Below are positions 40,532 through 61,437 of a stretch of DNA of 64,000 bases, in pieces. Source of the DNA: Leclercia adecarboxylata (GTDB lineage Bacteria > Pseudomonadota > Gammaproteobacteria > Enterobacterales > Enterobacteriaceae); the NCBI RefSeq assembly GCF_006171285.1, contig NZ_CP040894.1:1-64000 (forward strand), in the 5' to 3' direction. Position 1 is the first letter of the stretch, and each line of letters begins with the position of its first letter. Below the pieces are notes generated by a model. The model searched no databases, was not told the DNA's origin, and saw only the letters and a program-made list of their open reading frames with translations. A program made the translations under genes and the position numbers.

Positions 40532-40733
40532 CCATGCCTTTCGCAAAAGCCTTGTCGGGATCGGACTCTTTTACAGCGGCCATCATTTTGTCATGCATAC
40601 CTTTCATGCCGGACATATATTCCTGTGACGATGCCGATGAGGATATATCTGACATTTTCATTTCTGAATGTTCTGCGGAAATCGCTGGCAGGGATAACAT
40701 CAGTATAACAAAAAGCGAATTTGTGATTTTCAT
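40532..40733 (-). pseudogene. DUF305 gene, 5' part with signal peptide
   Basis: From ATG 40733 it reads MKITNSLFVILMLSLPAISA (signal peptide) and then Met-rich EMKMSDISSS and YMSGMKGMHDKMMAAV up to KAFAKGM, where the IS3-family element interrupts. The intact protein would be a periplasmic metal-binding DUF305 protein linked to silE. Position and Met/His content support a role in silver or copper binding; the insertion should abolish it. Confidence 0.87.
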
Positions 40734-40782
40734 ATAATAAACCCTTTCAGATGGTTACCGGATAAGTTTAGCTGAGTCAGAC

Positions 40783-40811
40783 AAAAAAGCCCCCTGAAGG
40801 GGGCAAAAAAT
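40783..40811 (-). terminator. silE terminator
   Basis: aaaaaagccccct-gaa-gggggcaaaaaat forms a GC stem. On the minus strand it ends in a T-run, 67 bases past the silE stop. Confidence 0.85.
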
Positions 40812-40878
40812 AACAACATATCCGTATAAGGGACAATCTATCAAGGAAAGGGTAACCGCACGGAAACTTCAGTTGTCA

Positions 40879-41310
40879 TCAGCCCGCATTGATCATGCGG
40901 CGGTGTGCATCAGCCATAGCCTGATGGGGGCCGGACTGACCGTTATTCGTAAATTCATGGGCAACAGCTGCTCTTTCATGTTCATTCATCGCCGCAAACG
41001 AAGTCGCCGGACGGGAAGCGTTAACGGTGCCAGTTCCCATCATCTTCTGATGACTTTCCGCCATTTTTTTATGTGCATCTGCTGAACCATTGTTCATGGT
41101 TTCATGAACAATAATAGCCTGTTCATGCTGATCCATACCGGCCATCCGTGGAGCTGCCCCCTGGATGGCGGCTGGAGTTGAAGAAGACTGCATCTGATGG
41201 GCCGGAGCCTGAGCATTATTGACACGCTCATGGATATTTACAGTTTCAGTGGCCCAGGCCGTAGAAATTAAGCTCAAACCTAACACTGATGCTAAGACGA
41301 TATTTTTCAT
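40879..41310 (-). CDS. silE: SilE, periplasmic silver-binding protein
   Basis: SilE is a periplasmic sponge that binds several Ag(I) ions through His and Met. The 143-residue precursor has a signal peptide (MKNIVLASVLGLSLISTAWA) and repeated metal motifs (HEQAIIVHETMNN, HKKMAESHQKMMG, HERAAVAHEF, HQAMADAHRRM), as in plasmid pMG101 SilE. ATG 41310 is preceded by an aatggagag site; a longer upstream frame lacks a signal peptide and is rejected. Its own promoter probably includes the SilR box at 41525-41543. Confidence 0.96.
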   Translation of the reverse strand: MKNIVLASVLGLSLISTAWATETVNIHERVNNAQAPAHQMQSSSTPAAIQGAAPRMAGMDQHEQAIIVHETMNNGSADAHKKMAESHQKMMGTGTVNASRPATSFAAMNEHERAAVAHEFTNNGQSGPHQAMADAHRRMINAG

Positions 41311-53591: not shown

Positions 53592-54308
53592 TCAGTCCAG
53601 GTATCGTTCGTAGTCTCTGGCATGCGCAAAGGCATGCTGTTCAAGTTTGTTATCAGCGGGTGCCGCTGCCCGGAACGCCAGTGAGTTAACAGGATTGTTA
53701 TTGATGACCAGCTCGTAATGCAGATGAGGACCGGATGAACGTCCGCTGTTACCGGATAACGCAATAGCGTCTCCCCGGGTAACCCTGGCCCCTTTAGTAA
53801 CGAGTATTTTATTGAGGTGGAGATAGCGAGTTTTAACACCGGCTTTTCCCGTTACTTCAACAAAATATCCCATGGTACTGTTGTATTCGGCCCGGGTGAT
53901 TTTTCCGTCGATGACGCTGACTATTTTCGTGTTCATGGGCATGGAATAATCAATGCCATTATGGGGACTCACTTTTCCCGATACCGGGTTAAGTCTTGCA
54001 GGATTGAAAGGCGAACTGAGTCTTGCTGTGGCCGGTAACGGATAATCGAGACTGCCTTTCCCGGAAGTATCGGAAAGGTTATAGAACTTTTTATCTGATA
54101 TACGATACGCCGTGTAATTAAATGAACCGGACGTAAATTTATAGGCCACGACACGTGATTTTCCCGCTTTCTTTTGCAGTACGAGTTTTAATGATTCATT
54201 TTTTTTCAAATGCCGCAGATTAAACCGGGAAGGCAAGGAGCGCTGAAGAGTAGCGATCTCGTTCGATTCCAGCCCCGAGCGGGTGGCTGAAAGGTAGGCA
54301 TTTTCTTT
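53592..54308 (-). pseudogene. pcoG: PcoG, M23-family metallopeptidase, split by the IS1 composite transposon
   Basis: The remaining frame encodes about 239 residues ending in an M23 (LytM) domain with zinc ligands in PHNGIDYSMP and SGPHLHYEL and the GYFVEVTGKAGVKTRYLHL segment. The first seven codons (ATG at 61437, MYSTDVV) lie on the far side of the IS1 composite. The frame joins exactly when the composite and one copy of the 9-bp duplication are removed, for a 245-residue protein. M23 peptidase genes sit between sil and pco in copper/silver islands. It should be inactive unless an IS1-borne promoter and an internal start rescue it. Confidence 0.88.
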
Positions 54309-54317
54309 TACGACATC
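54309..54317. repeat. Left copy of 9-bp target duplication of the IS1 composite
   Basis: tacgacatc directly precedes IS1 copy A and is identical to 61417-61425 directly after IS1 copy B. IS1 typically makes 9-bp duplications, so the whole 7099-bp unit inserted in one event. Confidence 0.95.
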
Positions 54318-54372
54318 GGTAATGCTGCCAACTTACTGATTTAGTGTATGATGGTGATTTTAAGGTGCTTGC

Positions 54373-54648
54373 GTGGCTTCCATTTCCATCAGATGTCCTT
54401 CCTGCTCCGCTACTGAAGGCGTGGTGCGTAACGGCAAAAGCACTGCCGGACATCAGCGCTATCTCTGCTCTCATTGCCGTAAAACATGGCAACTACAGTT
54501 CACTTACACCGCCTCTCAGCCCGGTACGCACCAGAAAATCATTGATATGGCCATGAATGGCGTCGGATGTCGCGCCAGTGCACGCATTATGGGCGTTGGC
54601 CTCAACACGGTTTTACGTCACTTAAAAAACTCAGGCCGCAGTCGGTAA
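54373..54648 (+). CDS. insA: IS1 InsA (copy A)
   Basis: The 91-residue zinc-finger/HTH protein ([29 protein letters not shown]) represses IS1 transcription. Ribosomal -1 frameshifting at the A-run near the end of insA (cttaaaaaactc) fuses it to InsB to make the transposase. Identical to copy B. Confidence 0.94.
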
Positions 54649-55070
54649 CCTGGCGCATACAACCGGGCAGTGATGTGATTGTCTGCGCTGAAATGGACGA
54701 ACAGTGGGGCTACGTCGGTGCTAAATCACGTCAGCGCTGGCTGTTTTACGCGTATGACAGGATACGGAGGACGGTTGTGGCGCACGTCTTCGGTGAACGC
54801 ACTCTGGCCACACTGGAGCGTCTTCTGAGCCTGCTGTCGGCCTTTGAGGTCGTGGTATGGATGACGGATGGCTGGCCGCTGTATGAATCACGCCTGAAGG
54901 GAAAGCTGCACGTTATCAGCAAGCGTTACACTCAGCGCATTGAGCGACATAACCTGAATCTGAGACAACATCTGGCAAGGCTGGGACGGAAGTCACTGTC
55001 GTTCTCAAAATCGGTGGAGCTGCATGACAAGGTCATCGGGCATTATCTGAACATAAAACACTATCAGTAA
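54567..55070 (+). CDS. insB: IS1 InsB (copy A), DDE domain of the transposase
   Basis: The 167-residue reading carries the catalytic domain ([36 protein letters not shown] and the [21 protein letters not shown]-terminus). It is intact and normally translated as the InsAB' fusion. Confidence 0.94.
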
Positions 55071-55106
55071 GTTGGAGTCATTACCGGTTTAGTCTATGAA
55101 TAAACA

Positions 55107-55913
55107 TTAAATAATGTCTACTTCCACCAGAACCCCAAAGTGATCCGATACAACCGGATAAAAATCGTTATTAAAAATCACCTGATGCTGCTTTACCACC
55201 ATCGGTTGATTACTAAGAACCAAATCAATGCGTAGCGCTTGGCTATTTTGTTCCCAACCGTCAATATTTTTAATTACAGTAGTTCCGGAGTCTTTTATTT
55301 CTGCTATTTCATAACAATCTATCAAACCGCACTGTAATACATAATCATAACCTTCATTGCGTATATGGCTTGGGTTGTTGAAATCGCCTAATAGAAAGCT
55401 CAACTCTGTTGATAATGTTGCCTTTATTCTGTTGAACTGGTCCTCAAATGAGCTCTCTGAGTCACTCCACCAGCCGCAATGACAATTATAAAGATTGAAA
55501 TCACCTCGTTGAGAAGTGACCTTAATACGCACTGCTCGCCTATGTTTCCAAAAGTTCACATCATAGTTATCACTTAGGTCAATGACCTCATGCTCGACAA
55601 TCGGCAGTCGCGTCAAGAATGCCAGTCCCTCTTGATATACGTCATAACTTTGATGAACGAAATCCCATGTAAGTTGGTAGTGATAGCCGTATTCCATGAG
55701 TTTTTTCTGTAATAAATATCCATAGTTATCAGCGAGCACGGTGTGATTAGTTAATATATTGGCATCAACAGCCGAGCTATTTTGATGTTGATTCACTTCC
55801 TGTAATGCAACGACATCGCACCCTTGCTCGATAATGGCTTGCGCTACCACATCCAACTTTTCTAGTTGTTTCTCTTCTTGCCAACTATGGGTATTTAGCG
55901 TCATTAACTTCAT
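55107..55913 (-). CDS. Endonuclease/exonuclease/phosphatase-fold enzyme
   Basis: The 268-residue product has the DNase I-like motifs in order: MKLMTLNTHSWQEEKQLEKL, VVALQEVNQHQ (Glu metal ligand), NLYNCHCGWW, LLGDFNNPSHIRN (Asp/Asn) and YPVVSDHFGVLVEVD (Asp-His). It has no signal peptide, so it probably acts in the cytoplasm on a phosphoester (nucleic acid, phospholipid or sugar phosphate). It is the last gene of the cargo operon, 86 bases past the PTS gene and beyond a terminator. A link to sugar use is only suggested by position. Confidence 0.85.
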   Translation of the reverse strand: MKLMTLNTHSWQEEKQLEKLDVVAQAIIEQGCDVVALQEVNQHQNSSAVDANILTNHTVLADNYGYLLQKKLMEYGYHYQLTWDFVHQSYDVYQEGLAFLTRLPIVEHEVIDLSDNYDVNFWKHRRAVRIKVTSQRGDFNLYNCHCGWWSDSESSFEDQFNRIKATLSTELSFLLGDFNNPSHIRNEGYDYVLQCGLIDCYEIAEIKDSGTTVIKNIDGWEQNSQALRIDLVLSNQPMVVKQHQVIFNNDFYPVVSDHFGVLVEVDII

Positions 55914-55943
55914 TTATTATTCACTTATTCATTGTAGCGAGTT

Positions 55944-55966
55944 AAACGCAGCTCAAGGCTGCGTTT
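55944..55966. terminator. Terminator-like hairpin between the PTS gene and the EEP gene
   Basis: aaacgcagc-tcaag-gctgcgttt is a perfect 9-bp stem just downstream of the PTS stop. It probably limits transcription into the next gene. Confidence 0.75.
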
Positions 55967-55999
55967 CTCGAGGTTATTTTATCTAGGGTAGAGAATGAA

Positions 56000-57628
56000 T
56001 TACGCAGGTTGTGCTGAAAACTTCTCAACTAATCTAGATTTAATGACATCCACTCCTGGACCATAAATAACTTGTACTCCCTGTTCTTTAATTACAGCAC
56101 CAAGTGCTCCTGTCGGCTTCCATAATGCATATTCAGCAACCAACTGCGGGTCATTAACTGTAATGCGCAAGCGAGTCATACAAGCATCAATCTCAACAAT
56201 ATTGGCACGGCCACCTAAATTCTGAATAATAATGTCCATCTTCTCATCTTCTGACATGGATTCTGAACTTTCATCGAGGTAGTTACCCATACGGCCCGGT
56301 GTTGGCAATTTAAATTTGACAATGAGCACACGGAATAATCCATAGTTAACACCAAAGAAAACAATAGAAACCAATGCGAAGCGAACCAAATCACCACCGA
56401 TTCCCGCTGAAACCATCATAGGTATACGAGTGAGTAACTCAATCAAACCAAAGGCATGTATACGTAGGTCCATCACATCGACCAACGCAAATGCAATCCC
56501 TGTTAATACCGCATGCGCAACATACAAAACAGGAGCAATAAACATAAACATGAATTCAATAGGCTCTGTCACACCGGTTAATAACACAGCAAGACACGCA
56601 GATAAAAACATTGGCTTGTATTGTGCGCGCTTATCACTATCAACACAGTGATACATCGCAAGTCCAATACCAATCAATGAAGACGCTGCGATAATAACTT
56701 GGCCCGCTTTAAAACGTGCTGGATGCACCGTATCTAATAGATGTTGGTAAGTTGTCGGATCGCTTAATTTAAGATTATTTAAATCGCTAACCCAAGCAAG
56801 CCATAGTGGATCTTGACCATAAACACTTGCCCCCGCATTCACCCCTGTTAAAAGCTCATAAGTACCACCCAACTCGGTGTAATTCATTGGAATAGTTAAA
56901 GTGTGGTGTAAACCAAATGGCAGTAATAAGCGCTCTAACGTACCATACAAGAAAGGAGCAGTGATCGGCGCAGTGTCTTTAGAGGTTGCAATCCATTGAC
57001 CAAAATCATTAAGCGCACCTTGAATTAAAGGCCATACGATTGATAAAGCAAACGCAATAATCATCGAATAGAAAATAACAACAAAAGGTACAAAACGCTT
57101 ACCGTTGAAAAATGCTAATGCCTGAGGTAAGCGAGCGAAGTCATGATAACGGTTAAATAAGTTGGCACCTAAATAGCCAGACATAATACCGATAAACACA
57201 CCCATATTTAGAGCAGGAGCACCCAAAATATTAGTGAAGAATTGAGAGACAGGTAGCTCAGAACCAAATAGGCTCATCACAACCGCCTCGGGATCACTGA
57301 GCATAGCGTTATCCACGCCTAATATAACCACAGTGATACGGTTAATTAAGATGAAGGCGATCAGCGCGGCAAATGCTCCTCCTGCACGTTCTTTAGCCCA
57401 TGATCCACCAATAGCGACAGCAAATAATAGGTGAAGATTAACTATGATCCCCCAGCCTATGTTTTCCATAATAGCGCCTAGTGTTTCAATGGCACCAATA
57501 CCACCAGCATACATTGCGACAACTTTACCGAGTGATATCATGATACCAGCGGCTGGCATCACCGCGATAACAACGATAAGGGATTTCCCAAATCGTTGCC
57601 AAAAATCAAAAGATAGTAACTGACTCAT
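56000..57628 (-). CDS. MalX-like PTS IICB permease for alpha-glucosides
   Basis: The membrane IIC part (about residues 1-430) resembles the glucose/maltose PTS family: MSQLLSFDFWQRFGKSLIVV, FNGKRFVPFVVIFYSM, LLPFGLHHTLTIP and VLLTGVTEPIEFMFMFIAPV. The C-terminal IIB domain (about 450-540) has the phosphorylatable Cys in IDACMTRLRITV. No IIA domain is fused, so it would need the host EIIA-Glc. The adjacent hydrolase suggests the transported sugar is a phosphorylated alpha-glucoside such as maltose or isomaltose, but the substrate cannot be read from sequence. It lies 59 bases after the glucosidase. Confidence 0.93.
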   Translation of the reverse strand: MSQLLSFDFWQRFGKSLIVVIAVMPAAGIMISLGKVVAMYAGGIGAIETLGAIMENIGWGIIVNLHLLFAVAIGGSWAKERAGGAFAALIAFILINRITVVILGVDNAMLSDPEAVVMSLFGSELPVSQFFTNILGAPALNMGVFIGIMSGYLGANLFNRYHDFARLPQALAFFNGKRFVPFVVIFYSMIIAFALSIVWPLIQGALNDFGQWIATSKDTAPITAPFLYGTLERLLLPFGLHHTLTIPMNYTELGGTYELLTGVNAGASVYGQDPLWLAWVSDLNNLKLSDPTTYQHLLDTVHPARFKAGQVIIAASSLIGIGLAMYHCVDSDKRAQYKPMFLSACLAVLLTGVTEPIEFMFMFIAPVLYVAHAVLTGIAFALVDVMDLRIHAFGLIELLTRIPMMVSAGIGGDLVRFALVSIVFFGVNYGLFRVLIVKFKLPTPGRMGNYLDESSESMSEDEKMDIIIQNLGGRANIVEIDACMTRLRITVNDPQLVAEYALWKPTGALGAVIKEQGVQVIYGPGVDVIKSRLVEKFSAQPA

Positions 57629-57687
57629 AAATGATTCCTTGGTTTAAATGCAGGGTAGCCTTATCAAGGCCCTGCGATAAATATAAT

Positions 57688-59421
57688 TTAGTGCTTTCTT
57701 GCAAATATATACGCAGCATAAGGTGGGGCAATTTGCGTCGCTATAAAATCTGAGCGAACGTGTTCATTGTTGACATTCTGATTATCAAGCATTAACTCGC
57801 CTAATTGCATGCGGTCGATATCAACGATGCTCTCTTGTGGACTTAAATTGGTAATAATGGTCCATGTCATATCTTGTGCAACACGTTGATAAGCATAGAT
57901 ATTAGGGTCGTTAGGTAGCAGCAATTGATAGCGGCCAACCACTAAACTTACATTTGACTTACGCAGAGCAATCAGCTGCTTATAGAAACTCAAAATCGAA
58001 TTTGGATCTTTCTGTTGTTGCTCAACATTGATATCTGCGTACTGTTGATTGACGGAGAACCAAGGTTGCACCTCAGAAAAACCGGCAAAATCCTGCGCAT
58101 TCCATTGCATTGGCAAGCGACTGTGGTCGCGAGATACTTGATTTAACAAGGCTAAGATGTCTGCATCGCTTTGACCTTGTTGAGATAGCTTTTGAATTAA
58201 ATTTCTAGCAGACACATCATTAAATTCATCAAGAGAAGTAAACTGATGATTTACCATACCAATCTCTTGGCCCTGATAAATAAACGGAGTTCCTTTCATC
58301 AAGAAATAACAACTCGCTAACGCGGTAGCACTGGCATACCTAGAGGTAGGGTCGGCAAAAGTATCAATGCTACGAGCTTGATCGTGGTTTTCTAAATAAA
58401 GCGCATTCCAGCCTTTACCTTCTAATGCATCTTGCCAACGCGATAAAATGCGTTTGAACTCCACTAGATCTAAAGGCACGTTGCTTTGTTCTTCCGACCA
58501 TAGCTTCATGTGTTCAAACTGAAAAATCATGTTGAAAACACCGCCTTGATCGTGCTCGGTCGCTTCGGCAACCCAAAGTAATGCATTGTCGGCAGTCACC
58601 CCATTAGCCTCACCAACTGTCACTATGTTAAAGGGATCAAACGCCTGCTCTTTTAACTCATGCAGATGTTTTTCAATCCCTGCCACATTCATATGATAAT
58701 CAAACGAAGAGACATACTTTTCACCCTTTGGATTGGGTAAAGAAGGTAAACCTGGTTGTTTCTGAATATGGCTAATTGCATCCACACGGAAGCCATCAAT
58801 ACCACGCTCCAACCACCAATAAATCATTTTAAATAGTGCTTGTTTAACTTCAGGATTTTCCCAATTCAGATCAGGTTGTTTTTTTGAAAATAGGTGCAAG
58901 TAGTACTGTGCAGTTTTTTTATCATATTCCCATGCGCTGCCATGAAAAATACTTTCCCAGTTGTTTGGGTCGCAAGTCGGTTTTTCAGCGGTAGGCTCAC
59001 AACCATCACGCCAAATATACCAATCGCGCTTAGGGCTATTTTTGTTATCTCGAGATTCAATGAACCATGGGTGCTCGTCGCTAGTGTGGTTGATCACTAA
59101 ATCCATAATAATGCGAATGCCACGTTTATGAGCAGCACTGATTAGTTCATCCACATCCTCAAGGGTTCCAAAGTCAGGATGAATCGCTTGATAGTCACTA
59201 ATATCGTACCCGTTATCATCATTAGGTGATGCATAGAATGGGCAAATCCATATTAAATCAATGCCCAAATCAGCAAGATAATCGAGCTTAGCAATGATGC
59301 CATTGATGTCACCAATACCGTCCTGGTTTGTATCATAAAAACTACGGGGATAAATTTGGTAGGCGGTTGCTTTCTTCCACCACGCGAGTGGTTTTGAGTG
59401 CATATTAGGAGCGAGTGTCAT
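57688..59421 (-). CDS. GH13 alpha-glucosidase (oligo-1,6-glucosidase-type)
   Basis: The 577-residue cytoplasmic hydrolase cleaves alpha-linked glucosides. Conserved GH13 regions are visible: QIYPRSFYDTNQDGIGDING, IIMDLVINHTSDEHPWF (region I), GIDGFRVDAISHIQ (nucleophile Asp, region II), VTVGEANG (acid/base Glu, region III) and LYLENHDQARS (region IV). The VINHT segment places it with alpha-1,6-acting or mixed glucosidases. It is encoded directly downstream of a palindromic operator and upstream of the PTS gene, as in maltose- or isomaltose-type operons. A phospho-alpha-glucoside substrate is possible. Confidence 0.92.
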   Translation of the reverse strand: MTLAPNMHSKPLAWWKKATAYQIYPRSFYDTNQDGIGDINGIIAKLDYLADLGIDLIWICPFYASPNDDNGYDISDYQAIHPDFGTLEDVDELISAAHKRGIRIIMDLVINHTSDEHPWFIESRDNKNSPKRDWYIWRDGCEPTAEKPTCDPNNWESIFHGSAWEYDKKTAQYYLHLFSKKQPDLNWENPEVKQALFKMIYWWLERGIDGFRVDAISHIQKQPGLPSLPNPKGEKYVSSFDYHMNVAGIEKHLHELKEQAFDPFNIVTVGEANGVTADNALLWVAEATEHDQGGVFNMIFQFEHMKLWSEEQSNVPLDLVEFKRILSRWQDALEGKGWNALYLENHDQARSIDTFADPTSRYASATALASCYFLMKGTPFIYQGQEIGMVNHQFTSLDEFNDVSARNLIQKLSQQGQSDADILALLNQVSRDHSRLPMQWNAQDFAGFSEVQPWFSVNQQYADINVEQQQKDPNSILSFYKQLIALRKSNVSLVVGRYQLLLPNDPNIYAYQRVAQDMTWTIITNLSPQESIVDIDRMQLGELMLDNQNVNNEHVRSDFIATQIAPPYAAYIFARKH

Positions 59422-59436
59422 CGGTTATACTATATG

Positions 59437-59450
59437 TGTTATCGTTAACA
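59437..59450. promoter_or_regulatory. LacI-family operator upstream of the glucosidase
   Basis: tgttatcgttaaca is a 14-bp near-palindrome with a central CG, typical of LacI/GalR sites. It lies 16 bases before the glucosidase start codon and within a run of TATA-like bases. The adjacent LacI-type protein would repress here. Confidence 0.78.
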
Positions 59451-59489
59451 TATATAGTTAAGTAGAACCGATTTGGACTCAACACAATT

Positions 59490-60455
59490 TCAGAGGAATT
59501 GTGAGCTTTCTCTCATCTTTATGTCGAATGTGCCTTCAACAGAACTGAAATCGCGCTTGAGCAATTTTTTGACAGCTTGGTAGCCCACTTGATAGTAGTT
59601 AAAAGCGACAGTCGTCAGGCTCGGGACTAACAAATCGCTGTAGTCATAGTCACCCATGCCTACAATCCATACGTTATGACCGATCTTGAGTTGCTGTTCT
59701 TTGGCGCGACGATATAAACGAATGGCAATATTATCGGTGGCACAAAAGTAGACATGATTAGGCTGTAATTGAACGGCCTGATAGCCAGCTTTGTCCTCCG
59801 AGTTGGCTAGGGCTTGTAGTGATAAATTCAACTCAGGGACGGTGTCGGTAATAGTGGCTTGCATCAACTTAGTGCGGCTAGAAAGCATACGCTCATCATA
59901 AATATAATGTACGGCAGCCAGCGGTGCCTGCTGCTGTTTTAACTGAGTGATGGTGTGGGAGACGAGGGCTTTAATCGCTGCATGATCGGGGTAATATAAA
60001 CAGCAATGGTGGGGGGTATTTTTGCCAATAAATACCACATTGTCTAAGGTTCGATAAAAAGTCTCTTCGACACTGTGCTTTGACGCAATAATAATCGTGC
60101 CCAATGCATTTAAGCCGTTAAACTCTCTCACAGCTTGGCATTCTGACTCATGGTTAAACCCTGTGGCATGAAACAGCATTCGTACTTGTGATTCATTGGC
60201 AGCAGCCAGCGCCCCTTTAATCACTAAACTGGTCGTATATGACTCAATACGAGGCGCGATGAAACCAATAATATTGGATTGGCTACGAATGGAGCGAGCA
60301 AATATATTAGGCGTGTAATGACTCTCTTTGACGATGGCATCAATTTTAAGGCGGTTCTCTTCCGAGACATAACCGCCATTAAAGTAACGCGACACAGTCA
60401 TTGTTGAAATTCCAAGCTGCCTTGAAATCTCAGCCATGGTCATTTTTTTACTCAT
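59490..60455 (-). CDS. LacI-family transcriptional regulator of the alpha-glucoside operon
   Basis: The 321-residue repressor has an N-terminal LacI HTH (MTMAEISRQLGISTMTVSRY) with the hinge after NIFARSIRSQSN. A periplasmic-binding-protein-like sensor domain follows (IIGFIAPRIESYTTSLVIKG, VWIVGMGDYDYSDLLVPSLT, TVAFNYYQVGYQAVKKLL). It is transcribed in the same direction as the operon, with the operator between its end and the glucosidase start. Likely effector: the alpha-glucoside or its phosphate (inference). Confidence 0.93.
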   Translation of the reverse strand: MSKKMTMAEISRQLGISTMTVSRYFNGGYVSEENRLKIDAIVKESHYTPNIFARSIRSQSNIIGFIAPRIESYTTSLVIKGALAAANESQVRMLFHATGFNHESECQAVREFNGLNALGTIIIASKHSVEETFYRTLDNVVFIGKNTPHHCCLYYPDHAAIKALVSHTITQLKQQQAPLAAVHYIYDERMLSSRTKLMQATITDTVPELNLSLQALANSEDKAGYQAVQLQPNHVYFCATDNIAIRLYRRAKEQQLKIGHNVWIVGMGDYDYSDLLVPSLTTVAFNYYQVGYQAVKKLLKRDFSSVEGTFDIKMRESSQFL

Positions 60456-60648
60456 TACCTATTTCCTTCAATAATGCACTATTGCCATATCTCCAAGTGA
60501 CTTCAAGATACAGAATTCAGAGTTGAGTCACTTGGGCATAGTATCCAATATATTGGCTAACAACACAGTAAATAAAACTGGGTGGACGTATGAGTGTTTA
60601 ATTTTCACTCACAAGATTTAGACCTGAACTCAAGACCAAGGAGCGAGC
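60456..60648. other. Cargo boundary region upstream of the LacI-type gene
   Basis: AT-rich stretch with a plausible promoter for the regulator and no gene. It ends directly at IS1 copy B. Confidence 0.5.
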
Positions 60649-60703
60649 GGTAATGCTGCCAACTTACTGATTTAGTGTATGATGGTGATTTTAAGGTGCT
60701 TGC

Positions 60704-60979
60704 GTGGCTTCCATTTCCATCAGATGTCCTTCCTGCTCCGCTACTGAAGGCGTGGTGCGTAACGGCAAAAGCACTGCCGGACATCAGCGCTATCTCTGCT
60801 CTCATTGCCGTAAAACATGGCAACTACAGTTCACTTACACCGCCTCTCAGCCCGGTACGCACCAGAAAATCATTGATATGGCCATGAATGGCGTCGGATG
60901 TCGCGCCAGTGCACGCATTATGGGCGTTGGCCTCAACACGGTTTTACGTCACTTAAAAAACTCAGGCCGCAGTCGGTAA
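60704..60979 (+). CDS. insA: IS1 InsA (copy B)
   Basis: Identical in translation to copy A (54373-54648): a 91-residue zinc-finger/HTH protein with the frameshift A-run near its end. Intact. Confidence 0.94.
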
Positions 60980-61401
60980 CCTGGCGCATACAACCGGGCA
61001 GTGATGTGATTGTCTGCGCTGAAATGGACGAACAGTGGGGCTACGTCGGTGCTAAATCACGTCAGCGCTGGCTGTTTTACGCGTATGACAGGATACGGAG
61101 GACGGTTGTGGCGCACGTCTTCGGTGAACGCACTCTGGCCACACTGGAGCGTCTTCTGAGCCTGCTGTCGGCCTTTGAGGTCGTGGTATGGATGACGGAT
61201 GGCTGGCCGCTGTATGAATCACGCCTGAAGGGAAAGCTGCACGTTATCAGCAAGCGTTACACTCAGCGCATTGAGCGACATAACCTGAATCTGAGACAAC
61301 ATCTGGCAAGGCTTGGACGGAAGTCACTGTCGTTCTCAAAATCGGTGGAGCTGCATGACAAGGTCATCGGGCATTATCTGAACATAAAACACTATCAGTA
61401 A
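60898..61401 (+). CDS. insB: IS1 InsB (copy B)
   Basis: Identical in translation to copy A (54567-55070) despite one synonymous base change (CTG to CTT at 61314). Catalytic domain intact, so both IS1 copies could move the composite. Confidence 0.94.
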
Positions 61402-61416
61402 GTTGGAGTCATTACC

Positions 61417-61437
61417 TACGACATCGGTAGAATACAT
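61417..61437 (-). pseudogene. pcoG: First codons of pcoG beyond the IS1 composite
   Basis: On the minus strand ATG 61437 starts MYSTDVV; its last nine bases are the right copy of the target duplication (61417-61425). The frame continues at 54308 after removal of the composite. Confidence 0.85.

Follow-up and report, generated by a model that had tools for sequence, protein, structure and literature searches.

How did an operon for sugar uptake and hydrolysis come to lie inside a gene of a metal-resistance island, and which sugar would it serve? Both questions are raised by a 64,000-nt stretch of Leclercia adecarboxylata DNA (contig NZ_CP040894.1, positions 1 to 64,000; here called the window, which denotes the whole stretch analyzed), in which pcoG of a sil/pco (copper/silver-resistance) island is interrupted at positions 54318 to 61416. 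Our analysis confirmed that the interrupting unit is a composite transposon of the insertion sequence IS1 that carries a sugar phosphotransferase system (PTS)/glucosidase operon. The joint reading, namely, that an IS1 composite with a Vibrio operon was inserted once in pcoG and that this operon specifies a MapP-type maltose route, appears quite probable.

Structure of the IS1 composite and its target site

The cargo (5563 bp; 55086 to 60648) is framed by two IS1 copies in direct orientation on the plus strand (left, 54318 to 55085; right, 60649 to 61416), each 768 bp long and each with an intact InsA frame and an A6C run (at 54624 and 60955, respectively); the pair differs at 1 of 768 positions. 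A 9-bp target duplication within pcoG, TACGACATC, is present at both outer IS1 ends (54309 to 54317 and 61417 to 61425), and no exact matches to the IS1 ends were found elsewhere in the window. Once the flanks were joined by a script without the insertion, the pcoG frame was open across 245 codons. The larger 3' part of the gene occupies 53592 to 54317 on the minus strand and belongs, according to the annotation of relatives, to the peptidoglycan DD-metalloendopeptidase family, and the short 5' end past the insertion (61417 to 61437, minus strand) includes the duplicated bases and a likely ATG at 61435 to 61437. All four open reading frames (ORFs) of the cargo are intact and lie on the minus strand. 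The GC content of the cargo is 41.4%, versus 51.8% in the left 10 kb and 49.0% in the right 2.6 kb. Target duplications of IS1 measure 8 to 10 bp, and a composite of two direct IS1 copies is of the Tn9 type. Thus, an original prediction made from the letters of the window alone, which described two complete direct IS1 copies, a 9-bp duplication with restoration of the pcoG frame, and an AT-rich cargo, was borne out in these respects. The name pcoG for the interrupted gene, which adjoins DUF2933, agrees with an excerpt of PMC12582456.

The entire cargo is held by Vibrio metschnikovii CIP 69.14 (L010), with 16 mismatches and no gap (99.71% identity), and the Vibrio DNA runs on past the positions of both inner IS1 ends, with no IS1 there. 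The cargo boundaries are therefore not due to chance, since this ungapped match reaches up to both inner IS1 ends, with a different continuation beyond, and the outer junctions recur in other plasmids. The locus combines IS1 on both sides of the cargo, the outer 9-bp duplication, and inner flanks consisting of Vibrio sequence; together with the whole-cargo Vibrio match and a site shared by other plasmids, these features establish the transposon.

Distribution of the insertion and source of the cargo

A search of 72,556 plasmid records, which may omit those very close to the window's genome, identified the cargo in 10 (8 from Leclercia and 2 from Enterobacter), all of which were fetched. In eight of these (6 Leclercia and 2 Enterobacter), the cargo lies at the same pcoG site, with IS1 on both sides in every case; TACGACATC is present on both sides in 7 of the 10 copies, and in L084 (NZ_CP106961.1), it is present on the left, with the right IS1 being rearranged. 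The copies in L007 and L085 have other flanks and no duplication, and the left flank of L007 corresponds to window DNA at 40532 to 41183, which fits an IS1-adjacent deletion from the same site. In all 10 copies, the right IS1 measures 768 bp; the left IS1 has this length in two (L004 and L008), another length in seven, and is truncated in one. Both outer IS1 copies of L004 (plasmid pL21-1NR) are identical to the window's left copy. The cargo matches in one equal-length piece at 99.9 to 100% identity in 9 of the 10 copies, and only 6 of 5563 positions vary in an alignment of the window with nine copies (L004 left out). The location fields of the plasmids with the shared insertion name the USA, Australia, China, and Milan. 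The same genes and flanks in pco islands without IS1, which the original prediction had named as evidence that would tell against it, were not found: all eight pcoG copies are IS1 flanked, and the copies with IS1-free edges (V. metschnikovii and Escherichia coli ET220) are not at pcoG.

The part of pcoG to the left of the insertion is widespread, occurring in 2683 plasmid records (including 2019 from Klebsiella, 150 from Enterobacter, and 13 from Leclercia). The left junction was found full length at 100% identity in eight records, i.e., the eight pcoG-site composites. Twelve more records cover at least 80% of the left junction, of which seven (H98 to H104, including CP115334.1) do so with 80% coverage and 91.8% identity and four (H94 to H97) are two-piece matches. 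The twelfth, Klebsiella pneumoniae plasmid pCARKWA (H93), carries a single IS1 flanked on either side by TACGACATC, at these very nine pcoG bases. In E. coli plasmids CP115334.1 and NZ_CP116982.1 (the latter a weaker match), the same left flank of pcoG adjoins an IS1 in inverted orientation (91%); the stretches fetched from these two plasmids showed no second copy of the 9-mer. The IS1 copies in pCARKWA and the two E. coli plasmids share 88.4%, 90.8%, and 91.3% identity with the left copy of the window and are thus other isoforms. The pcoG site has been entered by IS1 at least twice and probably a third time.

Insertion at the same site was rejected as proof, by itself, of a single event, given that this part of pcoG is a hotspot for IS1. 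Common descent is argued instead from the shared inner cargo junctions, which indicate one inherited insertion common to Leclercia and Enterobacter plasmids. A private recent insertion was likewise rejected, given the 10 plasmid records with the cargo, 8 of them at this site. The claim of a single recent insertion therefore holds in part: the near-identical IS1 pair fits a recent event, but the insertion is not private to this genome, and the site has been hit more than once.

Past the inverted IS1, the two E. coli plasmids have a gene annotated malT, that is, the E. coli maltose regulator (L108:2576-5094 in CP115334.1 and L110:3325-7056 in NZ_CP116982.1). This annotated malT is a second, unrelated maltose gene beside the same hotspot, and L110 also has annotated drug-resistance genes. 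A partial extra IS1 copy (461 bp; L084:10332-10792) lies behind the right IS1 of NZ_CP106961.1, whose right-hand flank has a one-base change.

When the transporter protein of the cargo was scanned against the species genome collection, 54 loci were obtained. In the cargo DNA comparison, which listed matches of ≥78% identity and >150 bases only, other Vibrio and Psychromonas loci matched at 82.6 to 94.4%. V. metschnikovii may be a carrier of the operon and not its origin, since transposase-like ORFs and a reverse-transcriptase-like ORF were recognized by eye around its operon and the same contig has DNA approximately 76% similar to ParA/ParB-type regions of Vibrio plasmids. The cutoff of the transporter model TIGR02003 is exceeded in just one of 198 genomes from the window's family, namely, that of the window itself; cargo DNA matched 44 of these genomes, but only in pieces of ≤150 bits besides the window's own. 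Any cargo match was found in 2 of 5426 E. coli genomes, both times on the chromosome: ET220 (L002) carries the whole cargo (99.6%) and ABWA45 carries 7% of it. ET220 was rejected as a copy of the composite, as the Vibrio DNA extends 95 bp and 8 bp further on the two sides; its IS1 (95.8% identical) does not abut the cargo, which has ISKpn26 on its other side. The ET220 operon looks like a separate arrival of Vibrio DNA. A type I restriction locus is close by, and genes for LytTR and glucokinase are enclosed by two copies of ISKpn26 (L002:7906-17848). In ABWA45, a 368-bp operon remnant stands beside an IS1 (L003:5233-6368), as an IS1-adjacent deletion would leave.

Gene content and predicted pathway of the operon

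The operon encodes, in order, a LacI-family regulator, a GH13 protein, a PTS EIIBC transporter, and an endonuclease/exonuclease/phosphatase-family protein. From sequence comparisons, we infer a LacI-controlled maltose route of the MapP type, the substrate and activities of which are predictions. The transporter (542 amino acids [aa]; 56000 to 57628, minus strand) scores 824.6 bits against TIGR02003 (cutoff, 649.85), 168.2 against the alpha-glucoside PTS family TIGR02005 (cutoff, 607.3), and 27.1 and 25.3 against two trehalose PTS models (cutoffs, 592 and 409). Its nearest solved structures are 5iws and 6bvg, which we take to be Bacillus cereus MalT. Together with the neighboring genes, the TIGR02003 match points to maltose. 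Thus, of the alpha-glucoside PTS/glucosidase operon predicted originally, the sugar PTS and glucosidase stood, but the substrate assignment shifted to maltose, and the fourth gene, for the phosphatase, had gone unnamed. Pfam models detected EIIC and EIIB in the transporter and no EIIA domain; the protein would thus presumably need a host EIIA.

The product of the gene at 55107 to 55913 (268 aa, minus strand; PF03372) is, as judged from sequence and context, a predicted sugar-6'-phosphate phosphatase similar to MapP, the maltose-6'-phosphate phosphatase. Its nearest solved relative is 3teb (157 bits). The catalytic motifs (N, E, H, D-N, and D-H) are retained in nine of nine aligned sequences. 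In 54 of 54 loci, the phosphatase-family gene immediately follows the transporter gene and shares its strand; the gap between the two match ends is 0 to 18 bases in 35 Bacilli loci and 83 to 369 bases in the other 19. A further 50 less similar plasmid records contain the phosphatase, and the PTS gene adjoins it in all four that were fetched, two of which (plasmids of Enterococcus faecium and Lactococcus) have GH65, pgmB, and aldose epimerase genes beside the pair. MapP was reportedly first described by Mokhtari in 2013. The sections consulted of PMC3737437 place Enterococcus faecalis mapP downstream of malT and give it as annotated to the endonuclease/exonuclease/phosphatase family and reported to be a maltose-6-phosphate phosphatase; the maltose genes of E. 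faecalis and E. faecium, as given there and in excerpts of PMC3737153, fit the GH65-pgmB-epimerase neighborhoods of the plasmids. It is mainly the adjacency to the PTS gene and these enterococcal-type neighborhoods, which match the described mapP context, that led us to call the gene MapP-like.

The GH13 alpha-glucosidase (577 aa; 57688 to 59421, minus strand), for which alpha-1,4 (maltase) specificity is predicted, is nearest to 2ze0 (701.9 bits) and 5zcb (700.3 bits). In the alignment, its residues His218 and Asn273 correspond to 203 and 258 of 5zcb, and according to an excerpt of PMC10096246, His203 and Asn258 of the alpha-1,4-specific BspAG13_31A hydrogen-bond the sugar at subsite +1. The regulator gene (321 aa; PF00356 and PF13377) occupies 59490 to 60455 on the minus strand. 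Between it and the glucosidase gene lies a predicted operator, TGTTATCGTTAACA (59437 to 59450), the core of which, GTTAwCGrTAAC, is retained in 14 of 14 aligned sequences (the window and 13 of 17 genome loci with a LacI match). The operator pattern was found once in the window versus 0.03 times expected, a descriptive figure, as the pattern was picked after the alignment. Upstream of the regulator gene, at approximately 60530 to 60565, CCAATATATTGGATA is similar in most relatives of the operator alignment and represents a candidate promoter or second regulatory site.

All four genes occur together in 16 of the 54 loci. The remaining 38 comprise the 35 Bacilli loci, two loci near contig ends (L011 and L023), and one without a GH13 match (L014). 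A glucokinase relative, which would suit the release of free glucose, is located 230, 144, and 159 bases past the phosphatase match in three loci of Psychromonas; in ET220, one lies at a distance of 2.1 kb from the regulator end of the cargo.

In the explanation that we favor, an IS1 composite picked up a V. metschnikovii-type operon, was inserted once into pcoG of the sil/pco island, and was then inherited. EIIBC, supplied by the host EIIA-Glc (Crr), would import maltose as maltose-6'-phosphate, from which the MapP-like phosphatase would free maltose. The GH13 enzyme would then split maltose into two glucoses for phosphorylation by the host glucokinase, and the LacI-type repressor bound at the predicted operator would keep the operon off until the sugar arrives.

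Competing evidence and known systems

Several observations weigh against this proposal. The GH13 protein passes the cutoff of the phosphotrehalase subfamily PRK10933 in NCBIfam by 0.1 bit (535.1 versus 535). The enzyme that splits the sugar is not constant beside the PTS-phosphatase pair: a strong GH13 match is present in only 2 of the 35 Bacilli loci (a third, L047, shows a partial-length match of 26% identity), and among the 54 loci, GH65 was not found at all and pgmB was found once (L025, counted in Bacilli). A glucokinase relative is nearby in only 4 of the 59 loci searched. Residue 100 of the transporter is Val in the window, whereas all 59 related loci (the 54 scan loci plus L002 and L087 to L090) have Gly, and the window's transporter may thus be impaired. 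In L004, the transporter gene holds an extra IS1 with the nine bases CATTAAGCG (57007 to 57015) on both sides, so some copies of the operon may be nonworking. The host carries adjacent lamB and malM genes on a different contig, which makes the need for a second maltose route, and selection for one, uncertain. As for the transposon, the hotspot makes a shared site weaker as proof of common descent, and the 10 plasmid copies showed no instance of the composite having moved, as a unit, to a second site. At base 57330, where the change to Val at transporter residue 100 arises, the window alone differs from 11 other aligned copies and from L004, L009, and L011; this private change could be real or a sequencing error.

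The same final structure and duplication would also result if a lone IS1 had entered pcoG first and a circle of one IS1 plus the Vibrio operon had recombined into it. The single IS1 of pCARKWA demonstrates that IS1 enters these nine bases alone, and the opposite-orientation copies of the two E. coli plasmids abut the same left flank. However, these copies, being other isoforms, are no left-over precursors of this insertion, and among the best 5000 records, at least 80% of the right junction is covered in nine, eight of which have the cargo and the ninth of which is pCARKWA; we therefore consider this order of events unlikely. The unit might also be passenger DNA with no present function in these plasmids, hitchhiking on the metal-resistance island and starting to decay. 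In line with this are the altered left IS1 (eight plasmid copies have a length other than 768 bp), the interrupted transporter gene of L004, the private Gly-to-Val change, and the host's own maltose genes. The one-piece, near-identical cargo in nine copies and its six variable positions speak against such a hitchhiker, which appears rather unlikely.

A different substrate is unlikely, in our view. The operon might serve trehalose, via trehalose-6-phosphate and a TreC-like enzyme, or isomaltose or other glucobioses, with a different or broader role for the phosphatase, and the top two NCBIfam matches of the GH13 protein are indeed TreC-type models, and the cutoff of PRK10933 is marginally passed. 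Yet the protein scores only 575.8 against TIGR02403 (treC; cutoff, 799.05), the transporter is far below the cutoffs of the trehalose PTS models, and the host's own nearest relative has DGLRLDVINLIS where the cargo protein and five operon relatives have DGFRVDAISH. In addition, a phospho-hydrolase would presumably not need a fixed phosphatase partner.

An inherited IS1 composite with a predicted MapP-type maltose operon has counterparts in its parts, all of which are of known kinds; the novelty is in their combination. It resembles Tn9-type IS1 composites in its direct IS1 pair, 9-bp duplication, and intervening cargo but differs from them in that the cargo consists of Vibrio sugar genes instead of drug resistance genes and that the left IS1 is altered in most plasmid copies. 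With the malT-mapP genes of E. faecalis and E. faecium, as described in excerpts of PMC3737437 and PMC3737153, it shares a MalT-like PTS gene that has a phosphatase-family gene behind it; the phosphatase of an E. faecium plasmid relative (L087) is 38 to 39% identical over nearly the full length. In contrast, the E. faecium EIIBC has 720 aa (the extra part is taken as EIIA) versus 542 aa here, and the enterococcal system has GH65 and pgmB where the cargo has the GH13 glucosidase. Cetobacterium somerae (L089) has the same four genes in the same order (LacI-GH13-PTS-phosphatase), with 53% (GH13), 62% (PTS), and 41% (phosphatase) identity to the cargo proteins and no IS1 annotated in the stretch shown. 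A search of open-access papers, which provides weak evidence of absence, found nothing relevant to this transposon or to a Vibrio MapP.

Near-identical DNA is thus common to a Vibrio and to Enterobacteriaceae plasmids within a widespread copper/silver island, and the ends of the captured piece are defined to the base. If the pathway is as proposed, the phosphatase route reported from Enterococcus would also occur in Gram-negative bacteria, where a hydrolase would take the place of the phosphorylase. More tentatively, Gram-negative marine bacteria might possess a complete MapP-type maltose route that IS1 has mobilized, from which Enterobacteriaceae would gain access to maltose that depends on neither LamB nor the host mal regulon; a host could then silence or lose LamB, a porin that serves as a phage receptor, and still obtain maltose. 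Elsewhere in the window, positions 1 to 25000 match at least 5000 plasmid records, the best 10 of which have annotations including mercury-resistance genes, Tn3-family genes, and IS4321.

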